64,000 nt of DNA from Stigmatella erecta (GTDB lineage: Bacteria; Myxococcota; Myxococcia; Myxococcales; Myxococcaceae). Of the stretch, positions 22,272 to 30,730 are shown piece after piece. Positions within the stretch are counted from its first letter, which is position 1; the number at the start of each line of letters is the position of its first letter. A model generated the notes under the pieces. The model searched no databases and was not told the DNA's origin. It saw nothing but the letters and a program-made list of their open reading frames with translations. The stretch covers positions 1,178,001 through 1,242,000 of the forward strand of contig NZ_FOIJ01000001.1 of NCBI RefSeq assembly GCF_900111745.1. Reading direction: 5' to 3'. Both the position numbers and the translations under genes were made by a program.

Positions 22272-23219
22272 TCAGGCGCCCGCCCGCAGCACCCGCATGC
22301 AGGCGGTGAGGTCCTCCGGAACGGGGGCCTCCAGCGTCAGCACCTTGCCCGTCCTCGGGTGGGCGAAGCTCAGCCGCCACGCGTGCAGCGCCTGGCGGCC
22401 CAGCTGGGCCTGGGCCTCCGCCACCTGCCCCTTCGCCTTGCGCCCCGCGCCGTACAGCGCGTCGCACAGCAGCGGGTGCCCGGACTCGGAGAGGTGCACG
22501 CGGATCTGGTGCGTCCGGCCCGTGAGCAGGTCCACCTCCACCAGCGCCGCCCCTTCGAAGAGCTCGCGCGTGCGGAACACCGTCACCGCGCTCTTGCCCT
22601 CCTTCACCTTGCCCGTGAAGCGCTGGCGGTGCACCGGGTGGCGCCCGTACAGCGTCTCGATGCGCCCCTCGGCCTTCGGGTGCCCGTGCACCAGCGCCAG
22701 GTACGTCTTCTCCACCGCCCGCGTCTTGAAGGCCTTCTGCAGCGCCACCAGCGCCTGCTCGTTCTTCGCCACGGCCATGCACCCGGTCGTGTCCTTGTCG
22801 AGCCGGTGGACGATGCCCGGCCGGAGCTCTCCACCCACCCCCGCCAGGTCCTTCACCCGGTGCAGCAGCGCGTTCACCAGCGTGCCCGAGGCGTGTCCCG
22901 CCCCTGGGTGCACCACCATGCCCGCGGCCTTGTTCACCACCACCAAGTCCCGGTCCTCGTGCAGCACCTCCAGCGGCAGCGCTTCAGCCTGCGGGACGGC
23001 GGCCACCGGAGGGGGCACGTGGAGCGACAGGAGCTCTCCGCCCCGGAGGCGAGCCGAGGCCTTCATGGGGCGGCCGTCCGCCAGCACATGACCGGCGTCG
23101 ATCAGCCCCTGAATCCGGGAACGGGTCAGCTCGGGAAACGCGCGCGCCAGGTGTTGATCCAACCGCTCGCCCCGGGCTTCGGGCGGAGCGCGGTGCTCGC
23201 GCGAATCCGGGGCTACCAA
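22272..23219 (-). CDS. rluD: RluD-like 23S rRNA pseudouridine synthase
   Basis: 315 aa. An N-terminal S4 RNA-binding domain (RLDQHLARAFPELTRSRIQG, about 19-75) is followed by the RluA-family catalytic domain. HRLDKDTTG carries the catalytic Asp141, and GRTHQIRVHL is the second family signature. It should isomerise uridines in helix 69 of 23S rRNA during 50S maturation; RluC or RluA specificity cannot be excluded. The frame begins with TTG at 23219, overlapping the stop region of the upstream 87-aa gene by 7 bases, which implies translational coupling. No better in-frame start lies before the S4 domain. Confidence 0.88.
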   Translation of the reverse strand: MVAPDSREHRAPPEARGERLDQHLARAFPELTRSRIQGLIDAGHVLADGRPMKASARLRGGELLSLHVPPPVAAVPQAEALPLEVLHEDRDLVVVNKAAGMVVHPGAGHASGTLVNALLHRVKDLAGVGGELRPGIVHRLDKDTTGCMAVAKNEQALVALQKAFKTRAVEKTYLALVHGHPKAEGRIETLYGRHPVHRQRFTGKVKEGKSAVTVFRTRELFEGAALVEVDLLTGRTHQIRVHLSESGHPLLCDALYGAGRKAKGQVAEAQAQLGRQALHAWRLSFAHPRTGKVLTLEAPVPEDLTACMRVLRAGA

Positions 23220-23476
23220 ATCTTGGACTTCACGTGCGCCTTGGAGCGCAGGACGATGTCGTTGATGGCGCGCTCGAAGAAGTTCGCACGCGTGAAGATC
23301 TCCGCGCTCACGCGGCTCTTGTAGAGATCGCGCCCTTCGTCCAGCTCGTCCTTGAGGACCTCGAAGAGGTTGTCCTGCTCGATGCCTTTGATGATCTTCT
23401 GCTCGTTGTAGAGCGAGATATCCGAGGCGATCGCGCGGGCCAAACGCATCGCTTTGACCTTCTCTTCCTCTGTCAT
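23213..23476 (-). CDS. Small helical conserved protein upstream of the pseudouridine synthase
   Basis: 87 aa, charged and almost wholly helical (MTEEEKVKAMRLARAIAS), with no Cys, signal or membrane segment. Not assigned to a family. An AAAGAAG ribosome site precedes the ATG. Its TAG overlaps the TTG start of rluD, so the two are co-translated. A role tied to ribosome assembly is possible but only inferred from coupling. Confidence 0.6.
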   Translation of the reverse strand: MTEEEKVKAMRLARAIASDISLYNEQKIIKGIEQDNLFEVLKDELDEGRDLYKSRVSAEIFTRANFFERAINDIVLRSKAHVKSKIW

Positions 23477-23555: not shown

Positions 23556-25169
23556 TCACTTCTTCTGGGCTCCGGAGGCCAGGGTGAGGTAACTGCGCGA
23601 CACCTTGAGCGGGTCCAGCCCCAGCTCGCGCGCCAGGCTCATCAGGAAGCCGCGCAGGTACACCGTCGCCGGGAGCGCGGCGTAGCGGTCCGCCTCCACG
23701 TTCTCCAGGTGCTTGGCGGAGATGCGGGTGCGCTCGGCCAGCTGGTGCAGTGACAGCCCCCTGCCCTCGCGGACCTGGCGCAACACCTCCCCGTTGAACT
23801 CGGTGTTGGGGGGAATCTCCGGGGGCTTGGGCCGGGGCTCGCGGGCCTTGGCCGCCACCACCGCGAGCGCCGCCTCCGCCGTGGCGATGGCGGACTCCTG
23901 GGCCAGTTGCTGGGCCTCGCCCAGGTTCCGTCCTCCGGAGGAACCGGCGGCCGGGGGCGCCTTGTCGGGTTCCACCGCCACGTTTCGCGAGTGCGCGGGC
24001 GCGGGCGTGGGCCGGTGGAAGCGCCGGCCTCCCGGCGGCAACGGGGGGGGCGTGGCGGCCCGCTCGGGGCGGGAGGGCCGGGCCGGACCGGCCACGGGCG
24101 CGCGGGGCTCTTCCCGGAGCGGCAGGGGCGCCCCGACACCGGACACCTCCTCGTGCTGCGACATGGCGGGCACCGGGGTGGGTGTGGCCACCGCAGGCTC
24201 TGGAACAGGCGCGGGCGCCGCCACGGCCGGAACCACCGGCTCCACGGGGGGCGCCGCGAGGGCCACGGGCGCCGGAGGCTCGGCCGCCACCGGCTGGGGC
24301 GGCACCTCGGGCACGGCCTTCTCCCGGACCTCCCCGGGAGGGCTCGCCACGGCAGGACTCGCCACGGGGGATGCCGCCGTCTGGGGGGCAGCGGCCACCG
24401 CCGTGGGCTCCGGGGCTTGCGCCTCCGGGGCGGGGACGGGGGCCCCGGCGGATACCGGATCCGTGGAAGCCACCAGACCCGCCGAGCCCGTCAGGGACGG
24501 CGCTGGGACCAGGAGGGGCACGTACGAGAGGGCGTAGCTGCGGAACGCCGCGTGGATCTGCTGGGGCGAGACCGTGGGCGCGGCCGCTACCGGGGCCGAC
24601 GGCGCAGGTTCCGGCGCCGGTGCTGCCGGAGCTGGCTCGGGCAAAGCCCCCGCCGAGGCCGCCAGGGCCGCCACCGCAGGCGCCTGCTCCGCGGGAGGTG
24701 TCTCCACGGCGGCCACCGCCGGCGCTGCACGCTCCTCGGGAGGCGGCTCCACCGGGGCCCTGTCCGCGGCGAGCCGCACCGGGGGCGCCGCGGGGCTGGC
24801 CACGGCCTCTGCACCGGGGGGCGTGGAAGGCGCGGGGGCCACCACGGCCGGCGGTGCGGGCTTGGCCACGGGCGTCGCGGGCGCCAGGGCCTGGGCAGGA
24901 GCCGCCAGCGTGTTCGGCTGGGCCTGCTTCAGGCCGATCATCTGGTCATACTCTTCCCGCAGCTCCGGCTCGGTGAGGATCTCCATCGCCTCGGTGAGAC
25001 GGGCCCTCAACGAATCCAGCTGCCCTGGATCCACCAGCATGTACACCGCCACGGAATCCGGCGAGTACGTTTCGAGCGCCCGCTCGAACGCGGCGCGGAT
25101 CTCCGCACCGGGCGCGGTGACGGGCACTTCGAGGAGTTCGTAATAGGTCTGCTGCTCGAAGGGCTTCAT
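23556..25169 (-). CDS. J-like domain protein with long Pro/Ala linker and RodZ-like HTH
   Basis: 537 aa. Residues about 5-80 resemble a J domain (TYYELLEV; AMEILTEPELREEYD), but the HPD tripeptide that stimulates DnaK is SPD here, so chaperone activity is doubtful. Residues about 85-430 are a low-complexity Pro/Ala/Val linker. The C-terminal 80 residues (LRQVREGRGLSLHQLAERT; GFLMSLARELGLD) match the helix-turn-helix found in RodZ and polar-scaffold proteins, though no TM helix follows. Its ATG overlaps the stop of the MinD-like ATPase gene (ATGA), a strong hint the products work together in polar or cell-division positioning. Confidence 0.6.
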   Translation of the reverse strand: MKPFEQQTYYELLEVPVTAPGAEIRAAFERALETYSPDSVAVYMLVDPGQLDSLRARLTEAMEILTEPELREEYDQMIGLKQAQPNTLAAPAQALAPATPVAKPAPPAVVAPAPSTPPGAEAVASPAAPPVRLAADRAPVEPPPEERAAPAVAAVETPPAEQAPAVAALAASAGALPEPAPAAPAPEPAPSAPVAAAPTVSPQQIHAAFRSYALSYVPLLVPAPSLTGSAGLVASTDPVSAGAPVPAPEAQAPEPTAVAAAPQTAASPVASPAVASPPGEVREKAVPEVPPQPVAAEPPAPVALAAPPVEPVVPAVAAPAPVPEPAVATPTPVPAMSQHEEVSGVGAPLPLREEPRAPVAGPARPSRPERAATPPPLPPGGRRFHRPTPAPAHSRNVAVEPDKAPPAAGSSGGRNLGEAQQLAQESAIATAEAALAVVAAKAREPRPKPPEIPPNTEFNGEVLRQVREGRGLSLHQLAERTRISAKHLENVEADRYAALPATVYLRGFLMSLARELGLDPLKVSRSYLTLASGAQKK

Positions 25170-26215
25170 GGCGTCGAAGAGGTGGGAAAGGCGGTACCGT
25201 CGAGGGCCAGGATACGTCCGGCGATGCGCTGCAGTCCCTGGGCGGCGGGAGACTCGGGCCGCTCCAGCAACACGGGCCTGCGCTTGCGGATCGCCCGCCA
25301 GGCCTCGTCGTCGTAGCGGATGGCCCCCAGGTCATCCATCTCCAGGCCGAAGAACTTCTTCCAGGCGGACACCACGGCATTGCCCACCGTCATGTCCGCG
25401 TCCGTGCGCGCCTGGTTCACCACCAGGCGGATGCGGAACGACATCAGGTCCTTCTCCAGCCGCGCCCCCGCCGCCGGATCATCCTTGCGGACCTGGGCGA
25501 TGAAGTCGTGCGGCGTGCGCAGGTTGCCCTCGCGCGTGGTGAGGGCGCTCTCCACCAAGTCCTCGATGCCGTACTGGGCCTCCACCTGCTGGAGCTTCCG
25601 GAAGAAGGCCGCCTTGACGAAGCGGTACGCGTTCTCCACCGCGGTGGGCTCCGGCAACACCACCAGCACGCCGTGGTCGGCCACGAGGAAGAAGTCGAGC
25701 GTGTTGAAGCTGGTGCCCGCGCCGAGATCCAGGAGCAGGTAGTCCACCGGCAGCGCCGTCAGCGAGCGCAGCAGCTTCTGCTTCTGGGCGTACTTGATGT
25801 TGGCCGCGTCCAGCACGTCCTGCGCGCCCGCGATGAGCGAGAGGTGGGGCACGCCCGTGGGCAGGATGATGTCCTCGATGCGCGTCTTGCTGCTGCGCAC
25901 GAAGTCCGACAGCGTCGCGCTCGGCTGACCCACGCCCAGACAGGTGTGCAGGTTGGCCCCGCCCAGGTCCGCGTCCACCAGGAGCACGCGCATGCCGGCC
26001 TGCGCCAGCGCGATGCCGAGGTTGGCCGAGACGAGCGTCTTGCCGATACCGCCTTTCCCACCGCCCACGGCGATGATGCGCCGGGGCCGGGCACGCTTGG
26101 AGAGCCCTGGCGGGCCGGCGCTCGCCGACAGGACCGGAGCCCCCACGTCCCGGACGTCCTTGGCGGGAGGGGCAATGCGGCGGGGATCGACAGAAATGGA
26201 TGTGACGGGTTTCAA
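25166..26215 (-). CDS. MinD/ParA/FlhG-like ATPase
   Basis: 349 aa. GGGKGGIGKT (51-60) is the deviant Walker A of MinD/ParA ATPases; LLVDADLGGANLH and LLLDLGAG supply the switch and Walker B motifs. The C-terminal half (residues about 200-340) is longer than MinD and closer to the FlhG/MotR-type proteins. These ATPases form ATP-dependent dimers that position cellular structures. The first 40 residues are basic and variable. The frame starts with TTG at 26215. Coupled by a 4-base overlap to the J-like/RodZ-like gene; no flagellar genes are nearby, as expected in a gliding bacterium. Confidence 0.8.
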   Translation of the reverse strand: MKPVTSISVDPRRIAPPAKDVRDVGAPVLSASAGPPGLSKRARPRRIIAVGGGKGGIGKTLVSANLGIALAQAGMRVLLVDADLGGANLHTCLGVGQPSATLSDFVRSSKTRIEDIILPTGVPHLSLIAGAQDVLDAANIKYAQKQKLLRSLTALPVDYLLLDLGAGTSFNTLDFFLVADHGVLVVLPEPTAVENAYRFVKAAFFRKLQQVEAQYGIEDLVESALTTREGNLRTPHDFIAQVRKDDPAAGARLEKDLMSFRIRLVVNQARTDADMTVGNAVVSAWKKFFGLEMDDLGAIRYDDEAWRAIRKRRPVLLERPESPAAQGLQRIAGRILALDGTAFPTSSTP

Positions 26216-26306: not shown

Positions 26307-26900
26307 CTACTCGTCCAGCAGCTCCACGTTCCAGTACGAGGCGTCCTCCACCCGCAGGAACGGCAGCCACTCCCGGTAGGTGACGCGCCGGATGGCGCCC
26401 CGGAACAGCGGCGTCCACCGCGGGCGGAAGGGCCGGCGCAGCAGCCTCATCCCCGCCCGCTCCGGGGTCCGTCCCCCCTTCTTCAGGTTGCAGGGCACGC
26501 AGGAGCAGACGACGTTCTCCCACGTCGTCTTGCCGCCCTCGCAGCGGGGGTTCACGTGGTCCAGGTTCAACTCCGAGCGCGGCAGGGTGCGCCCGCAGTA
26601 CTGGCAGGTGTCGTGATCCCTCGCGTAGATGTTGAGCCGGGAGAAGCGCACCCGCCCCTTGGGGAGGTACTCGTAGGCGGAGAGCACCAGCACCCGGGGC
26701 ACCCGGATCGCCCGGTTCACCGTGACGATGCAGTCGCCCGTGGTGCTCAGCGCCGCCCAGTCCTCGAACTCATACAGCTTGTATTGATCGTCGATCGCCT
26801 TGGCCACGCCCTGGTAGAGCAGGGAAAAGGCGCGCTTCACCGAGGTGACGTGGACCGGCTGATAATTCCGGTTAAGAACCAGGACGGCGCTTTCGATCAT
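26307..26900 (-). CDS. HNH endonuclease-domain protein
   Basis: 197 aa. An N-terminal region (LVLNRNYQPVHVTSVKRAF) leads to an HNH domain with CQYCGRTLPRSELNLDHVNP and a second Cys pair (CSCVPCNLKKG), giving the zinc-supported beta-beta-alpha metal fold. This architecture is widespread in proteobacteria as a housekeeping HNH protein of unknown role and is not tied to a methyltransferase here, so it is unlikely to be a restriction enzyme. Its ATG overlaps the stop of selA by 4 bases. Confidence 0.8.
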   Translation of the reverse strand: MIESAVLVLNRNYQPVHVTSVKRAFSLLYQGVAKAIDDQYKLYEFEDWAALSTTGDCIVTVNRAIRVPRVLVLSAYEYLPKGRVRFSRLNIYARDHDTCQYCGRTLPRSELNLDHVNPRCEGGKTTWENVVCSCVPCNLKKGGRTPERAGMRLLRRPFRPRWTPLFRGAIRRVTYREWLPFLRVEDASYWNVELLDE

Positions 26901-28297
26901 GGGCCTCTTTCCTGTCCCGCGGTGCCACCGACGGCCTCGGCCACCAGGACCAAGTCGTCCTCCGCAAGACAACGGACGTCGAGGAGCACCTCGCCGTCCG
27001 CAATCCTTCCAATAACCGGCACCTGGGCACCACGCAGGGCCTCCAGGAATCCCTCCGGTTCCTGGACCGGGAGGATGCAGGCGAAGGACGGCAGCCGCGC
27101 CAACGGCATCGCCCCGCCTCCCACTTGCCCTGACACCGCGCCCACCCGCACCCGCACGCCCCGCGCCGCCAGCAGCTCCCGGAGCCGCTCGGCCCGCGCC
27201 TGCAGTACCTCGGACGGTTGGGCGAGCAGCCGCCAGGTGGGCACGGCCTCCGGCCGGCCATCCCGGTACAGCTCCAGGGTGGCCTCCAGCGCCGCCACCG
27301 TCATCTTGTCCACCCTCAGCGCCCGGGTGAGGGGGTGTGTCTTGATGCGGGACAGCAGGGCCTTGCGTCCCACGATGATGCCCGCCTGGGGGCCTCCCAG
27401 GAGCTTGTCGCCCGAGAAGGCCACCACCTCCACCCCCGCCGCCACGGAGTGGCGCACGGAGGGCTCGGCGGTGAGCCCCTCCCCGCTCAGCGGCACCAGC
27501 AGCCCCGAGCCGAGATCCTGGAACACCGGCACCCCATGCGCCTGCCCGAGCGTGGCCAACTCCCCCACCGCCACCTCCTCGGTGAAGCCCACCATCTCGA
27601 AGTTGGAGCGGTGCACCTTCACCAGCAGGCCCGTGTCCGGCGTGAGGGCCGACGCGTAGTCCGAGCGGCGCGTGCGGTTGGTGGTGCCCACCTCCACCAG
27701 CCGCGCCCCGGACTGGCGCATGACGTCCGGCACCCGGAAGCCGCCGCCAATCTCCACCAGCTCCCCGCGCGAGACGATGCACTCCTTGCCCGCCGCCAGC
27801 GCCGCCAGCACCAGCAGCGCCGCGCCCGCGCCGTTGTTCACGACGAGGACGTCCTCCGCGCCGGTCAGCTCCCGGAGCAGCTCCACCACCGGCGCGTAGC
27901 GGCTGCCGCGCTCGCCCTCCTCCAAGTCATACTCGAGGTTGGAGTAGCCCCGGGCCACCTCCGCCACGCGCGCCACCGCCTCGGCGGCCAGCGGCGCACG
28001 GCCCAGGTTGGTGTGCAGCACCACGCCCGTGGCGTTGAGTACCGGACGCAAGCGCGGGGTGAGCAGGCTGCGCAGGGCGCCCTCCACGTCCGCGTCCTCG
28101 AAGGGCTTTGCCTCTCCGCGCAGCAGCCGCCCGCGCACCCGCTCCACCGCCAGCCGCAGCGCGGCCACGGCGCGGGCCCGGGGGAGTGCCGCCAGCCGGG
28201 GCTCCAGCGAAGGGCGGCGCAGGAGCTGCTCGATGGACGGAAGCGAGCGCAGGAGCGCGTTCTTCCCGCTCTCCCCTCTCTTAGAAGGTGCGCCCAT
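26897..28297 (-). CDS. selA: L-seryl-tRNA(Sec) selenium transferase
   Basis: 466 aa, the usual SelA length. An N-terminal domain (SLPSIEQLL) precedes the PLP-dependent transferase: LNATGVVLHTNLGRAPL, YSNLEYDLEEGERGSR, and SGDKLLGGPQAGII with the PLP lysine. SelA converts Ser-tRNA(Sec) to Sec-tRNA(Sec) using selenophosphate. No selB, selC, selD or UGA-interrupted frame was noticed in this window. A TAGACT box 6 bases before the ATG suggests a near-leaderless transcript. The last four bases overlap the HNH gene. Confidence 0.9.
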   Translation of the reverse strand: MGAPSKRGESGKNALLRSLPSIEQLLRRPSLEPRLAALPRARAVAALRLAVERVRGRLLRGEAKPFEDADVEGALRSLLTPRLRPVLNATGVVLHTNLGRAPLAAEAVARVAEVARGYSNLEYDLEEGERGSRYAPVVELLRELTGAEDVLVVNNGAGAALLVLAALAAGKECIVSRGELVEIGGGFRVPDVMRQSGARLVEVGTTNRTRRSDYASALTPDTGLLVKVHRSNFEMVGFTEEVAVGELATLGQAHGVPVFQDLGSGLLVPLSGEGLTAEPSVRHSVAAGVEVVAFSGDKLLGGPQAGIIVGRKALLSRIKTHPLTRALRVDKMTVAALEATLELYRDGRPEAVPTWRLLAQPSEVLQARAERLRELLAARGVRVRVGAVSGQVGGGAMPLARLPSFACILPVQEPEGFLEALRGAQVPVIGRIADGEVLLDVRCLAEDDLVLVAEAVGGTAGQERGP

Positions 28298-28348: not shown

Positions 28349-30730
28349 TCAGAGCCCCGCGGTCTTCACCACGGGCACCTTCGCGGGGCGCCCGTAGAGC
28401 AACTGGTAAGTGTTGTACGAACGCAGCACGCGCTTGATGTAGCCGCGCGTCTCGGCGATGGGCACCTCCTCCACCCACGCGTCCAGCGGCATCCCCGGGC
28501 GCTCGGAGCGCCAGCGGTTCACCGCCCCCGAGCCCGCGTTGTAGCTGCCCACCGCGAAGGGCGTGTGCCCGTCGAACTTCTTGATCAGCTCGCCCAGGTA
28601 GTGCGCGCCCAGGCGGATGTTGAGGTCCGGCTCCAGCAGGGCCTCCACCCGGAAGTTCTTGATCTTCAGCTGCTGGGCCACGCCCTTGGCCGTGTACGGC
28701 ATGAGCTGCGTGAGCCCCAGCGCCCCCGCCCACGAGAGCGCCTTGGGATCCAACGCGCTCTCCTCGCGCATCAGCGCCTGCAGCAGGTCCGGCTCCACCC
28801 CCGCCGTCCGGGTGTGCTTTTCGATCAGCTCCCGGAACGCATTGGGGTAGGCGATCTCCCACACGGACCGCGTCTGTGGGGTAATCCGCCCGCCCAGGTC
28901 CCGGCGCAGGGCCACGCGGGCCACGGCGTGGGCGGAGCGCTCGTCCCCGCCCAGGGACAGCAGGTGAACGATGAGGCGCACGGATTCAGGGGGAAGCCCG
29001 GTGCGGTTGACCGCGAGCAGCTCGGAGGACACCGCCTCCGGGAAGCCCAGGCGCATCATCTCCACGCCGGCCAGGAAGTGGGGATCCTTCTGCATGGTGC
29101 CCGCGTGCAGGGGCCAGGGGCTGGCGGTCTCCGGGGCGAAGACGAGCTGTGGGGCGATGCGCTCCAGGCGCTCCTTGTCCACCTCGCCGAGCTGCGTGCG
29201 CGCCATCAGCCCGTAGTAGGTGGCCGGGTGCTCCACGGCCAGCTTCTCGAAGAGGGCCACCGCGCCGGGCATGTCCCCGCGCTCCTGCAGCGTGCGCGCC
29301 CGCCAGTACTGGGCCCGCTCCACGTCATAGGACTCGTCCGCGTCCGCGAAGCGCTGCTCGATGCGCGACAGCAGCTCCAGCCCTCCGTCCGGGGCCTTCC
29401 GGGTGCGGGCGATCCAGAACGCCTTGAAGAGCGCCTCGCCCAGGAAGTCACCCTTCGGGTAGTTGCGCTCCAGCTCCTCCAGCCGCGCGAGCGCCGGATC
29501 CAACTGGCCCGTCTTCACGTACAGGTCGGCCGCGTAGAAGAGCGCGTCGTCCGCGAAGGAGTGGCCGGGGAACTCGCGGGCCAGGCGCTCGTACGTCTCG
29601 GTGCCGCGCTTGAGCTCCACGATGGAGCGCGAGGAGCCGAGCACGTACAGCGCCCGGGGCAGCAGATCCGCGTCCTGGCACTTCTCCACCACGGGCACGA
29701 GCGTGGCGATGGCGCGCGTGTGCTGGCGCTCCTTGCGCATGCCCTTGCCGAAGGCGAAGTGCGCCCGGCACGCCAGCGGCTCCGGCAGCTTCAGCGCGGG
29801 CAGGAGCGGCTCGAGCGCGGTGAGCCCCTGCTTGTTGCGGTGCAGCTCGATGAGCTGCTCGGCGCGCGCCACCTGGGCCTCCAGGGGCGGCTTGAGCCCC
29901 TTGAGCCGGCGCTCGGCCTGCTTGGCCATCGCCGACAGGGGGTAGCGGGCCCACAGCTTCCAGAGCGCCTCGCGCTCGCGCTCGCGGTCCTTCTTCTCCA
30001 GGGCGATGTCGGCGGTGGCCAGGAGCGCCTCGGCGCCCACGCTGCGGCCAAAGGACACCGCGGGCCGGGCCGTCAACGGCGCGAGCGCCGCCATGGCCCC
30101 GTCATGGTCCTTCTTCTTGCGCAGCACGCGCGCCATGCCCAGCCGGGCGTCCACGTACAGCTTCGAGTCCTCCGGTACCTGGCCCAGCAGCGCCGCCGAC
30201 TCCTCGAAGCGCCCCAGCTGCTCGAGCGCCATGCCGGCATGCGTGAGGCACCGGTCGCGCAGCGCGGGGTAGTCCTCCGCCAGGGCCGTCATCTCCTCGG
30301 CCGCGCGCGCATCGTCCCCGGCCCGCACGGCGCTCAGCGCCCGCAGGTACCGCACGGGCGGCGCGTTGCCCTCCAGGTGCAGCAGGGCCCGGGCGCGGAC
30401 ATAGAGGCCGCGGTCGAACGCCTCCTTGGCCTCCTTGAGCCGCCCCTCGGCGAAGTACGGCGACAGATCGTTCAGCCCGTACGCCCGGCCCTTGTCCACC
30501 CGGACCTTGGCGGGCTCGACCCACGGCAAGGGGAAGGCGGGGTTGAATACCTCCACATACCCCTCGGGCAGCGGCGTCTTCTCGGCGTCCGGCGGCGGCC
30601 CCAGCAAGGCCTCCGAGGGAGCACCCTCGGTGCGTGGCTGCGGGGCGTTGGTGGGCTCGGAGGCCACGGGCTGTGCGGCCGCGAGCGACACGAAGGAAGC
30701 AAGAGCGAGGAGGAAGAGGACGGATTTCAT
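28349..30730 (-). CDS. Soluble lytic murein transglycosylase with TPR-like superhelix
   Basis: 793 aa. Signal peptide at residues 1-19 (LLALASFVSLAAAQ), so periplasmic. Residues about 90-560 are TPR-like helical repeats comparable to the ring of Slt70. The C-terminal SLT domain has the catalytic Glu in LMREESALDP (about residue 657), then GALGLTQLMP, DLNIRLGAHYL and SYNAGSGAVNRW. It should cleave the MurNAc-GlcNAc bond to make 1,6-anhydro ends during peptidoglycan turnover. The start is the ATG giving the signal peptide. It is divergent from the histidine kinase at 30839 with 108 bases between. Confidence 0.9.
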   Translation of the reverse strand: MKSVLFLLALASFVSLAAAQPVASEPTNAPQPRTEGAPSEALLGPPPDAEKTPLPEGYVEVFNPAFPLPWVEPAKVRVDKGRAYGLNDLSPYFAEGRLKEAKEAFDRGLYVRARALLHLEGNAPPVRYLRALSAVRAGDDARAAEEMTALAEDYPALRDRCLTHAGMALEQLGRFEESAALLGQVPEDSKLYVDARLGMARVLRKKKDHDGAMAALAPLTARPAVSFGRSVGAEALLATADIALEKKDREREREALWKLWARYPLSAMAKQAERRLKGLKPPLEAQVARAEQLIELHRNKQGLTALEPLLPALKLPEPLACRAHFAFGKGMRKERQHTRAIATLVPVVEKCQDADLLPRALYVLGSSRSIVELKRGTETYERLAREFPGHSFADDALFYAADLYVKTGQLDPALARLEELERNYPKGDFLGEALFKAFWIARTRKAPDGGLELLSRIEQRFADADESYDVERAQYWRARTLQERGDMPGAVALFEKLAVEHPATYYGLMARTQLGEVDKERLERIAPQLVFAPETASPWPLHAGTMQKDPHFLAGVEMMRLGFPEAVSSELLAVNRTGLPPESVRLIVHLLSLGGDERSAHAVARVALRRDLGGRITPQTRSVWEIAYPNAFRELIEKHTRTAGVEPDLLQALMREESALDPKALSWAGALGLTQLMPYTAKGVAQQLKIKNFRVEALLEPDLNIRLGAHYLGELIKKFDGHTPFAVGSYNAGSGAVNRWRSERPGMPLDAWVEEVPIAETRGYIKRVLRSYNTYQLLYGRPAKVPVVKTAGL

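Follow-up and report, generated by a model that had tools for sequence, protein, structure and literature searches.

We examined a pair of adjacent genes in a 64,000-nucleotide stretch of the Stigmatella erecta genome (9.2 Mb; contig NZ_FOIJ01000001.1, positions 1,178,001 to 1,242,000), referred to here as the window and numbered from its first letter. Both genes lie on the minus strand. The first (25166..26215) encodes a 349-residue ATPase of the MinD/FlhG type, as judged from the list of open reading frames (ORFs), Pfam, NCBIfam, and an alignment. The second (23556..25169) encodes a 537-residue protein, called the partner below, that consists of a J-like domain, a disordered linker, and a RodZ-type helix-turn-helix (HTH) domain. 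The ATG of the partner shares 4 bp with the TGA stop of the ATPase gene (ATGA; 25166..25169, minus), as read in the window sequence. An earlier reading of this DNA, made from the letters without database searches (the sequence-only reading), had described a MinD-like ATPase gene overlapped by a gene for a degenerate J domain (SPD in place of HPD) joined to a RodZ-type HTH. The ORFs, the domains, and the overlap were all found, and Pfam recognized both ends of the partner (DnaJ, E = 9.5e-9; HTH_25, E = 1.8e-20).

The pair is genuine and conserved across many bacteria. We compared loci in two sets. The Myxococcota set comprised 78 MinD loci (77 fetched stretches plus the window), chosen with the aim of including at least one per genus with a listed match, plus second copies, and was searched with profiles that had been built up from the window proteins using those same stretches. 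The named-genome set comprised the best 80 of at least 489 relatives found in a scan for the ATPase family; it overlaps the first set, with several genomes repeated (e.g., L144 and L094). Joint conservation, which the sequence-only reading had named as a check on its pairing of the two genes, was found in both sets. Both partner domains followed the ATPase or were fused to it in 53 of the 78 Myxococcota loci (52 in an adjacent ORF and 1 fused) and in 71 of the 80 named-genome loci (70 adjacent and 1 with all parts fused). Because the arrangement recurs so widely, a chance arrangement of two genes can be excluded. A 4-bp overlap of stop and start is possible in 38 of the 52 adjacent Myxococcota pairs and in 15 of the 70 adjacent named-genome pairs.

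The remaining Myxococcota loci included seven with the J part only, the rest of the partner being unrecovered (sequence end, or masked bases in L077), two that stop at a contig edge, and 16 without a partner. By our own sorting, four of these 16 are FlhG-like and 11 come from other MinD subfamilies; in the last, L117, the partner is truly lacking. The subfamily of the window, delimited by arrangement, score, and tree, accounts for 63 of the 78 loci; when the two at contig edges are set aside, the J part at least is present in 60 of 61, L117 being the one without it. The remaining named-genome loci comprised one with J fused but no HTH, two with J and a cut end, two with an HTH and an unrecognized J, three with nothing, and one that was cut. 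The titles in this set were Myxococcota, Bdellovibrionota/Bacteriovoracaceae, Desulfobacterota groups, Nitrospirae, Acidobacteria, SAR324, and a few others. The ATPase was matched at E <= 1e-25 in 128 of 156 Myxococcota genomes and 54 of 75 genera, some of them through paralogs only. In three phylum searches made with the ATPase alone, in which the known positives used as centers are counted, matches at E <= 1e-60 were present in 64 of 94 genomes in the phylum of L195 (titled Bacteriovoracaceae), in 15 of 60 in that of L160 (Nitrospirae), and in 14 of 79 in that of L183 (Desulfurivibrio), where 8 of the 14 were only 38 to 39% identical and may be paralogs.

At three loci, each known from one assembly, the J-like domain is fused to the ATPase in one frame. 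L102 (737 residues) and L202 (516 residues) have the same order, MinD-J-HTH, and L177 (417 residues) is MinD-J with a weaker J match (E = 1.2e-6) and no HTH. The stops at the junctions speak against assembly frameshifts as the source of these frames: no frame has a stop at the junction in L102 or L177, which for this reason do not resemble an overlapping pair joined by a sequencing error, and in L202 only the two frames not used by the gene contain stops, a pattern that we judged not explicable by one shift. In the ATPase tree, L102 and L202 are not sisters, and L102 falls on the paralog/FlhG-like side, apparently on a long branch. Because J-like and HTH parts are fused to the ATPase at these loci, the fused-gene argument suggests that the ATPase and the partner bind each other, and direct binding is quite probable. 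A model of the fusion, built from L202 and 11 further full-length rows, had a mean predicted local distance difference test score (pLDDT) of 80.7 and a predicted template modeling score of 0.70, with confident MinD, J, and HTH parts and a second linker that was not confident. The model is weakly compatible with a J-like domain packed on the ATPase.

The ATPase carries the deviant Walker A motif KGGIGKT at residues 54 to 60 (26036..26056, minus), read in the translation. Its TTG start codon is uncertain, and the conserved part begins at about residue 43. The nucleotide-motif residues, including both lysines and the glycines of Walker A, were invariant across 29 aligned family members. By its deviant Walker A motif with the signature lysine, its Walker B motif, and its fold (taken from the L202 relative), the protein falls within the ParA/MinD superfamily, and the ArsA and MinD families both matched it. 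By sequence, its closest solved relatives are FleN/FlhG and not MinD (5j1j, E = 9.3e-42, versus 1.6e-25 for the best MinD chain). The fold search, which used the structure modeled for the L202 relative, likewise gave FleN/MinD-type matches with FleN/FlhG nearest, including complexes of FleN with the regulator FleQ. Along with these solved relatives, the window ATPase shares with FleN/FlhG a deviant Walker A motif and a PEPT(S/A) region, but the two stretches aligned to them are set about 50 residues further apart, no C-terminal amphipathic helix could be seen, and a J/HTH partner lies alongside. It resembles MinD of the Min system in nucleotide motifs and fold class, whereas its scores lie below the curated NCBIfam cut-offs (minD_bact, 89.7 versus 212.9; minD_arch, 100.5 versus 201.75) and no membrane anchor was seen. 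An Mrp/ApbC iron-sulfur carrier was considered and excluded, since the protein has no CxxC and a single cysteine (residue 92). The other Myxococcota MinD subfamilies (L091, L092, L103, L104, L111, and L128 to L133) are 29 to 41% identical to the window ATPase and are without a J/HTH partner. Several of them continue into a long C-terminal extension, and for a supposed PilZ tail on some paralogs Pfam gave no support in L128.

The J-like domain occupies residues 8 to 75 of the partner (24945..25148, minus). In a model of the partner built on 63 sequences, residues 1 to 80 had pLDDT values of 88 to 98, and the domain gave J-domain fold matches, so that it has the fold of the DnaJ/Hsp40 cochaperones. 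The NCBIfam matches of the partner include DnaJ and RodZ models, every one under its curated cut-off. When the whole partner chain was compared with the PDB by Foldseek, the best matches were J domains and the RodZ-like YmfM (E of 0.007 and up, probability 1.00) and nothing was found at E <= 0.001; these weak E values reflect a chain that is mostly disordered. In the window, the HPD of J domains is replaced by SPD (residues 36 to 38; 25056..25064, minus), as seen in the translation and the aligned family. None of the 60 J-like domains of the Myxococcota set, and none of the 75 of the named-genome set, has HPD at the aligned place; the window domain is included in both counts. Five of the 75 have a histidine at the position but no PD, and the L182 domain has the letters HPD elsewhere, ahead of helix II. 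As a control, the same profile applied to two J proteins of the same genome found HPD in place. Since HPD is replaced throughout the family, the SPD of the window is one spelling of a family-wide change. After the HPD position, an A-x-Y motif is present in 49 of 60 Myxococcota and 68 of 75 named-genome domains, and the longer S-x-A-x-Y in 37 and 57 of these, respectively; L102 and L218, for example, are without this type of pattern. The sequence-only reading had suggested that the protein acts as a scaffold for polar or septal positioning and not as a chaperone, and it would have been overturned by homologs with an intact HPD that stimulate DnaK; these sets contain no homolog with HPD in its place. 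With HPD lost across the family, a role as a DnaK cochaperone is very unlikely.

The RodZ-type HTH lies at the other end of the partner (residues 463 to 520; 23610..23783, minus) and was modeled at pLDDT 94 to 98. It is recognized as HTH_25, and the RodZ equivalog models match it below their cut-offs. Its nearest solved relatives are CT009 (Chlamydia), YmfM (Staphylococcus), and 2wus_R, the last of which we take to be Thermotoga RodZ bound to MreB. An alignment with CT009 places the residues that contact MreB at Tyr504 and Phe508 of the partner. By a simple pattern, the first of these positions is Tyr or Phe in 116 of 124 partner ORFs. F60 and Y64 of Escherichia coli RodZ and Y66 and F70 of CT009 are required for interaction with MreB, which for CT009 was found in two-hybrid tests (PMC4047632; here and below, cited papers are drawn on for the portions available to us). 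In two-hybrid tests of Bacillus subtilis RodZ, the signal with MinD was strong and that with MinJ stronger still, and pull-down confirmed the MinJ contact only (PMC5778138).

Between the Pfam domains lies a Pro/Ala-rich linker (residues 76 to 462; 23784..24944, minus), mostly modeled at pLDDT 40 to 68. Measured between our own domain profiles (J to residue 79 and HTH from residue 452), it has 372 residues, of which 23% are Pro and 27% Ala; helices are predicted at residues 202 to 215 and 417 to 442, with pLDDT values of 77 to 81 around the latter. The sequence-only reading had given a Pro/Ala linker of about 350 residues, which agrees with the window, but such length is no general feature of the family. 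Linkers of at least 300 residues occur in 11 of 53 Myxococcota partner ORFs. In the named-genome set, 59 of 71 partner ORFs have linkers of 20 to 137 residues, which places the long linker outside the conserved design, and the eight linkers above 300 residues all come from loci titled Myxococcaceae, Corallococcus, or Myxococcus or, in L221, from a locus with myxobacterial gene order. Among the loci compared, very long linkers are thus restricted to myxobacteria.

No evident transmembrane segment was found in the window partner, where the best 19-residue hydropathy mean is 1.36. Across the 124 partner ORFs this mean is at most 1.66, with no high stretch after the HTH; the few relatives at 1.55 to 1.66 have the stretch within or adjoining an Ala/Pro/Val-rich linker. 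The partner resembles RodZ, YmfM, and CT009 in having an HTH_25 domain with aromatic positions relevant to MreB binding in E. coli and Chlamydia, but its HTH is C-terminal and joined to a J-like domain, and it has no evident transmembrane part. We considered the partner as a RodZ ortholog and excluded this, given the lack of an evident transmembrane segment and the presence of a separate short HTH_25 protein in the genome. The latter, at L064 (1321-1707, minus), has 128 residues and a hydrophobic stretch near its end; by eye, its gene adjoins a gene for a Tgl/PilF-type lipoprotein with tetratricopeptide repeats (TPRs) and recO, and it is possibly the short RodZ of the Stigmatella genome.

Chromosomes, division sites, flagella, and microcompartments are positioned by ATPases of the ParA/MinD type, which usually act with a partner that is tied to the cargo. 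We favor the interpretation that the pair forms a ParA/MinD-class module for spatial organization, in which the partner serves the ATPase as its own soluble adaptor; to this the sequences lead us to give about an even chance, and for the positioning role itself, the probabilities for and against appear equally balanced. The sequence-only reading is partly supported, by the loss of HPD and the joint conservation of the two genes; its scaffold role and its polar or septal site keep the standing of suggestions. Under this interpretation, the ATPase, with its motifs intact, would cycle from a dimer holding ATP to a monomer holding ADP and back, and the J-like domain, with no Hsp70-activating HPD and with a loop motif of its own, would dock on the ATPase or regulate it. 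The flexible linker, variable in length, would carry the RodZ-type HTH, which may grip a second structure, for which MreB is the first candidate. A link of the pair to MreB is a tentative suggestion and rather doubtful. The most far-reaching version, in which an ancient multi-phylum system uses a J domain to switch a MinD-type ATPase instead of Hsp70 and a RodZ-type domain to tie this cycle to MreB, seems unlikely when taken as a whole.

The pair is probably an undescribed module that serves to organize the cell. No description of the ATPase/adaptor pair was found in the literature searched by title and abstract opening, a coverage outside which many subscription papers fall. Among described proteins, ZipN/ARC6 and CJD1 are J-like, lack HPD, and are thought to be Hsp70 independent, and ZipN interacts with FtsZ (PMC6391411, PMC3196505). 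They resemble the partner in being J-like without HPD, but their architecture differs, and the available portions of these papers describe no MinD-type partner. McdAB and other ParA/MinD cargo systems likewise combine an ATPase with a partner for cargo, but no J-like or RodZ-like partner is described for them, and DnaJ is not mentioned in the available main text of the source (PMC10241942). Bdellovibrio ParA1 and ParA2 are possible members of the family; the neighbors of their genes are described as having no strong homology to functionally characterized proteins (PMC7186360). The pair is of interest because the ATPase is widely conserved and its dedicated partner has a composition not found described in the literature searched. 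It suggests a J domain that serves a non-Hsp70 ATPase and a soluble RodZ-type domain, and both ideas are directly testable. Myxobacteria and Bdellovibrio relatives carry the pair, and both groups include genetically tractable members; the natural fusions are ready single-chain constructs for structural work.

Four other explanations were weighed. The nearness of the ATPase to FleN/FlhG, the FleN-FleQ structures among the fold matches, and the presence of an HTH in the partner would all fit transcription control of the FleN-FleQ kind, with the HTH protein as a DNA-binding regulator and the ATPase as its antiactivator. We nevertheless regard this as unlikely, because the HTH is best described as HTH_25, its nearest solved relatives are YmfM, 2wus_R, and CT009, for which interaction with MreB is reported (PMC4047632), and control of this kind offers no evident role for a J-like domain. 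The pair might also serve in targeting or assembly, an ATPase of the SIMIBI class and its J-type cofactor delivering clients to a membrane or complex, as with Get3 or FlhF/FlhG. The ATPase superfamily is the same (ArsA and MinD matches), and the Vibrio J-domain protein SflA affects flagellation under FlhF/FlhG control (PMC7226244). SflA, like the partner, is a DnaJ-domain protein in a system controlled by a MinD-like protein, FlhG, but it spans the membrane once, has a TPR-like part in the periplasm, is Vibrio specific, and is encoded outside flagellar clusters (PMC7226244). No recurring secretion, flagellar, or insertion genes were recognized in 15 neighborhoods, in which no dedicated search was made, and HPD is lost, in contrast to cochaperones; we consider this explanation quite improbable.

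A function related to the ribosome or rRNA could be proposed from the RluD-type pseudouridine synthase gene behind the pair (22272..23219, minus; Pfam PseudoU_synth_2). This rluD gene is present in 34 of the 52 Myxococcota loci in which a single ORF carries both partner domains, where counts of neighbors come from stretches of limited length, and in 46 of the 80 named-genome loci, many of them Bdellovibrionota. It was unmatched at E <= 1e-4 in 12 Nitrospirae/Desulfobacterota loci, five titled Nitrospirae or Nitrospiria (L155, L160, L164, L193, and L198) and seven (L151, L152, L174, L182, L183, L184, and L206) with the titles Syntrophaceae, Syntrophus, Syntrophales, Desulfurivibrio, Desulfobacteraceae, and Desulfuromonadales. 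Neither protein of the pair suggests RNA binding, and a ribosomal role is in our estimate highly improbable. Least credible of all is an ordinary DnaK cochaperone that stands beside a MinD gene by chance: the J fold is supported by a significant sequence match and by a confident model, but HPD is missing from its place in every domain of both sets, and the two control J proteins show it there.

Several observations weigh against the favored spatial-organization interpretation or its proposed extension to MreB. The usual membrane anchor of MinD and FlhG appears to be missing, because no C-terminal amphipathic helix was seen when the last 30 residues of six members were compared by eye with those of four FlhG-like paralogs that apparently have one. 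The association of ATPase and partner is not absolute: L166 (titled Betaproteobacteria) and L170 (Silvanigrella) keep an HTH protein after the ATPase whose N-terminal part was not recognized as a J domain, L177 retains J without the HTH, and at L117, L146, L153, and L149 the ATPase was found without any partner at the locus. By the simple pattern used above, no more than about 86 of the 124 partner ORFs have an aromatic residue at the second MreB contact position. A strong MreB match (E <= 1e-120) was present in all 25 tested genomes with the ATPase and also in 15 of 16 genomes chosen as lacking it (G015, also lacking the ATPase, gave a weak match only), which makes the co-occurrence with MreB uninformative. 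Lastly, the pair is the constant unit, and its neighbors rluD, selA, the HNH gene, and slt vary by group and name no cargo.

Around the pair, all on the minus strand, are a conserved protein of 87 residues (23213..23476, 3' of the pair, ahead of rluD; no Pfam match up to E 0.1) and, upstream, an HNH endonuclease-like gene (26307..26900; Pfam HNH_5), selA (26897..28297; Pfam SelA), and a gene for an Slt-type lytic transglycosylase with TPRs (28349..30730; Pfam SLT). The usual order among relatives of the window is slt, selA, HNH gene, ATPase, partner, 87-residue protein, and rluD. In the 52 Myxococcota loci used for rluD, the 87-residue protein was present in 36, the HNH gene in 32, and selA and slt in 27 each. 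The selA and HNH genes share a 4-bp overlap at 26897-26900, which suggests a single operon from selA or slt towards rluD. The 87-residue protein is 56 to 100% identical across the 36 loci and is also found behind the fused L102 gene; it may be a third component. The L221 record (BNCN01000021.1), titled Comamonas sp., has the myxobacterial gene order and 74 to 91% identity to the window neighbors, so that its name and its sequence do not seem to fit.

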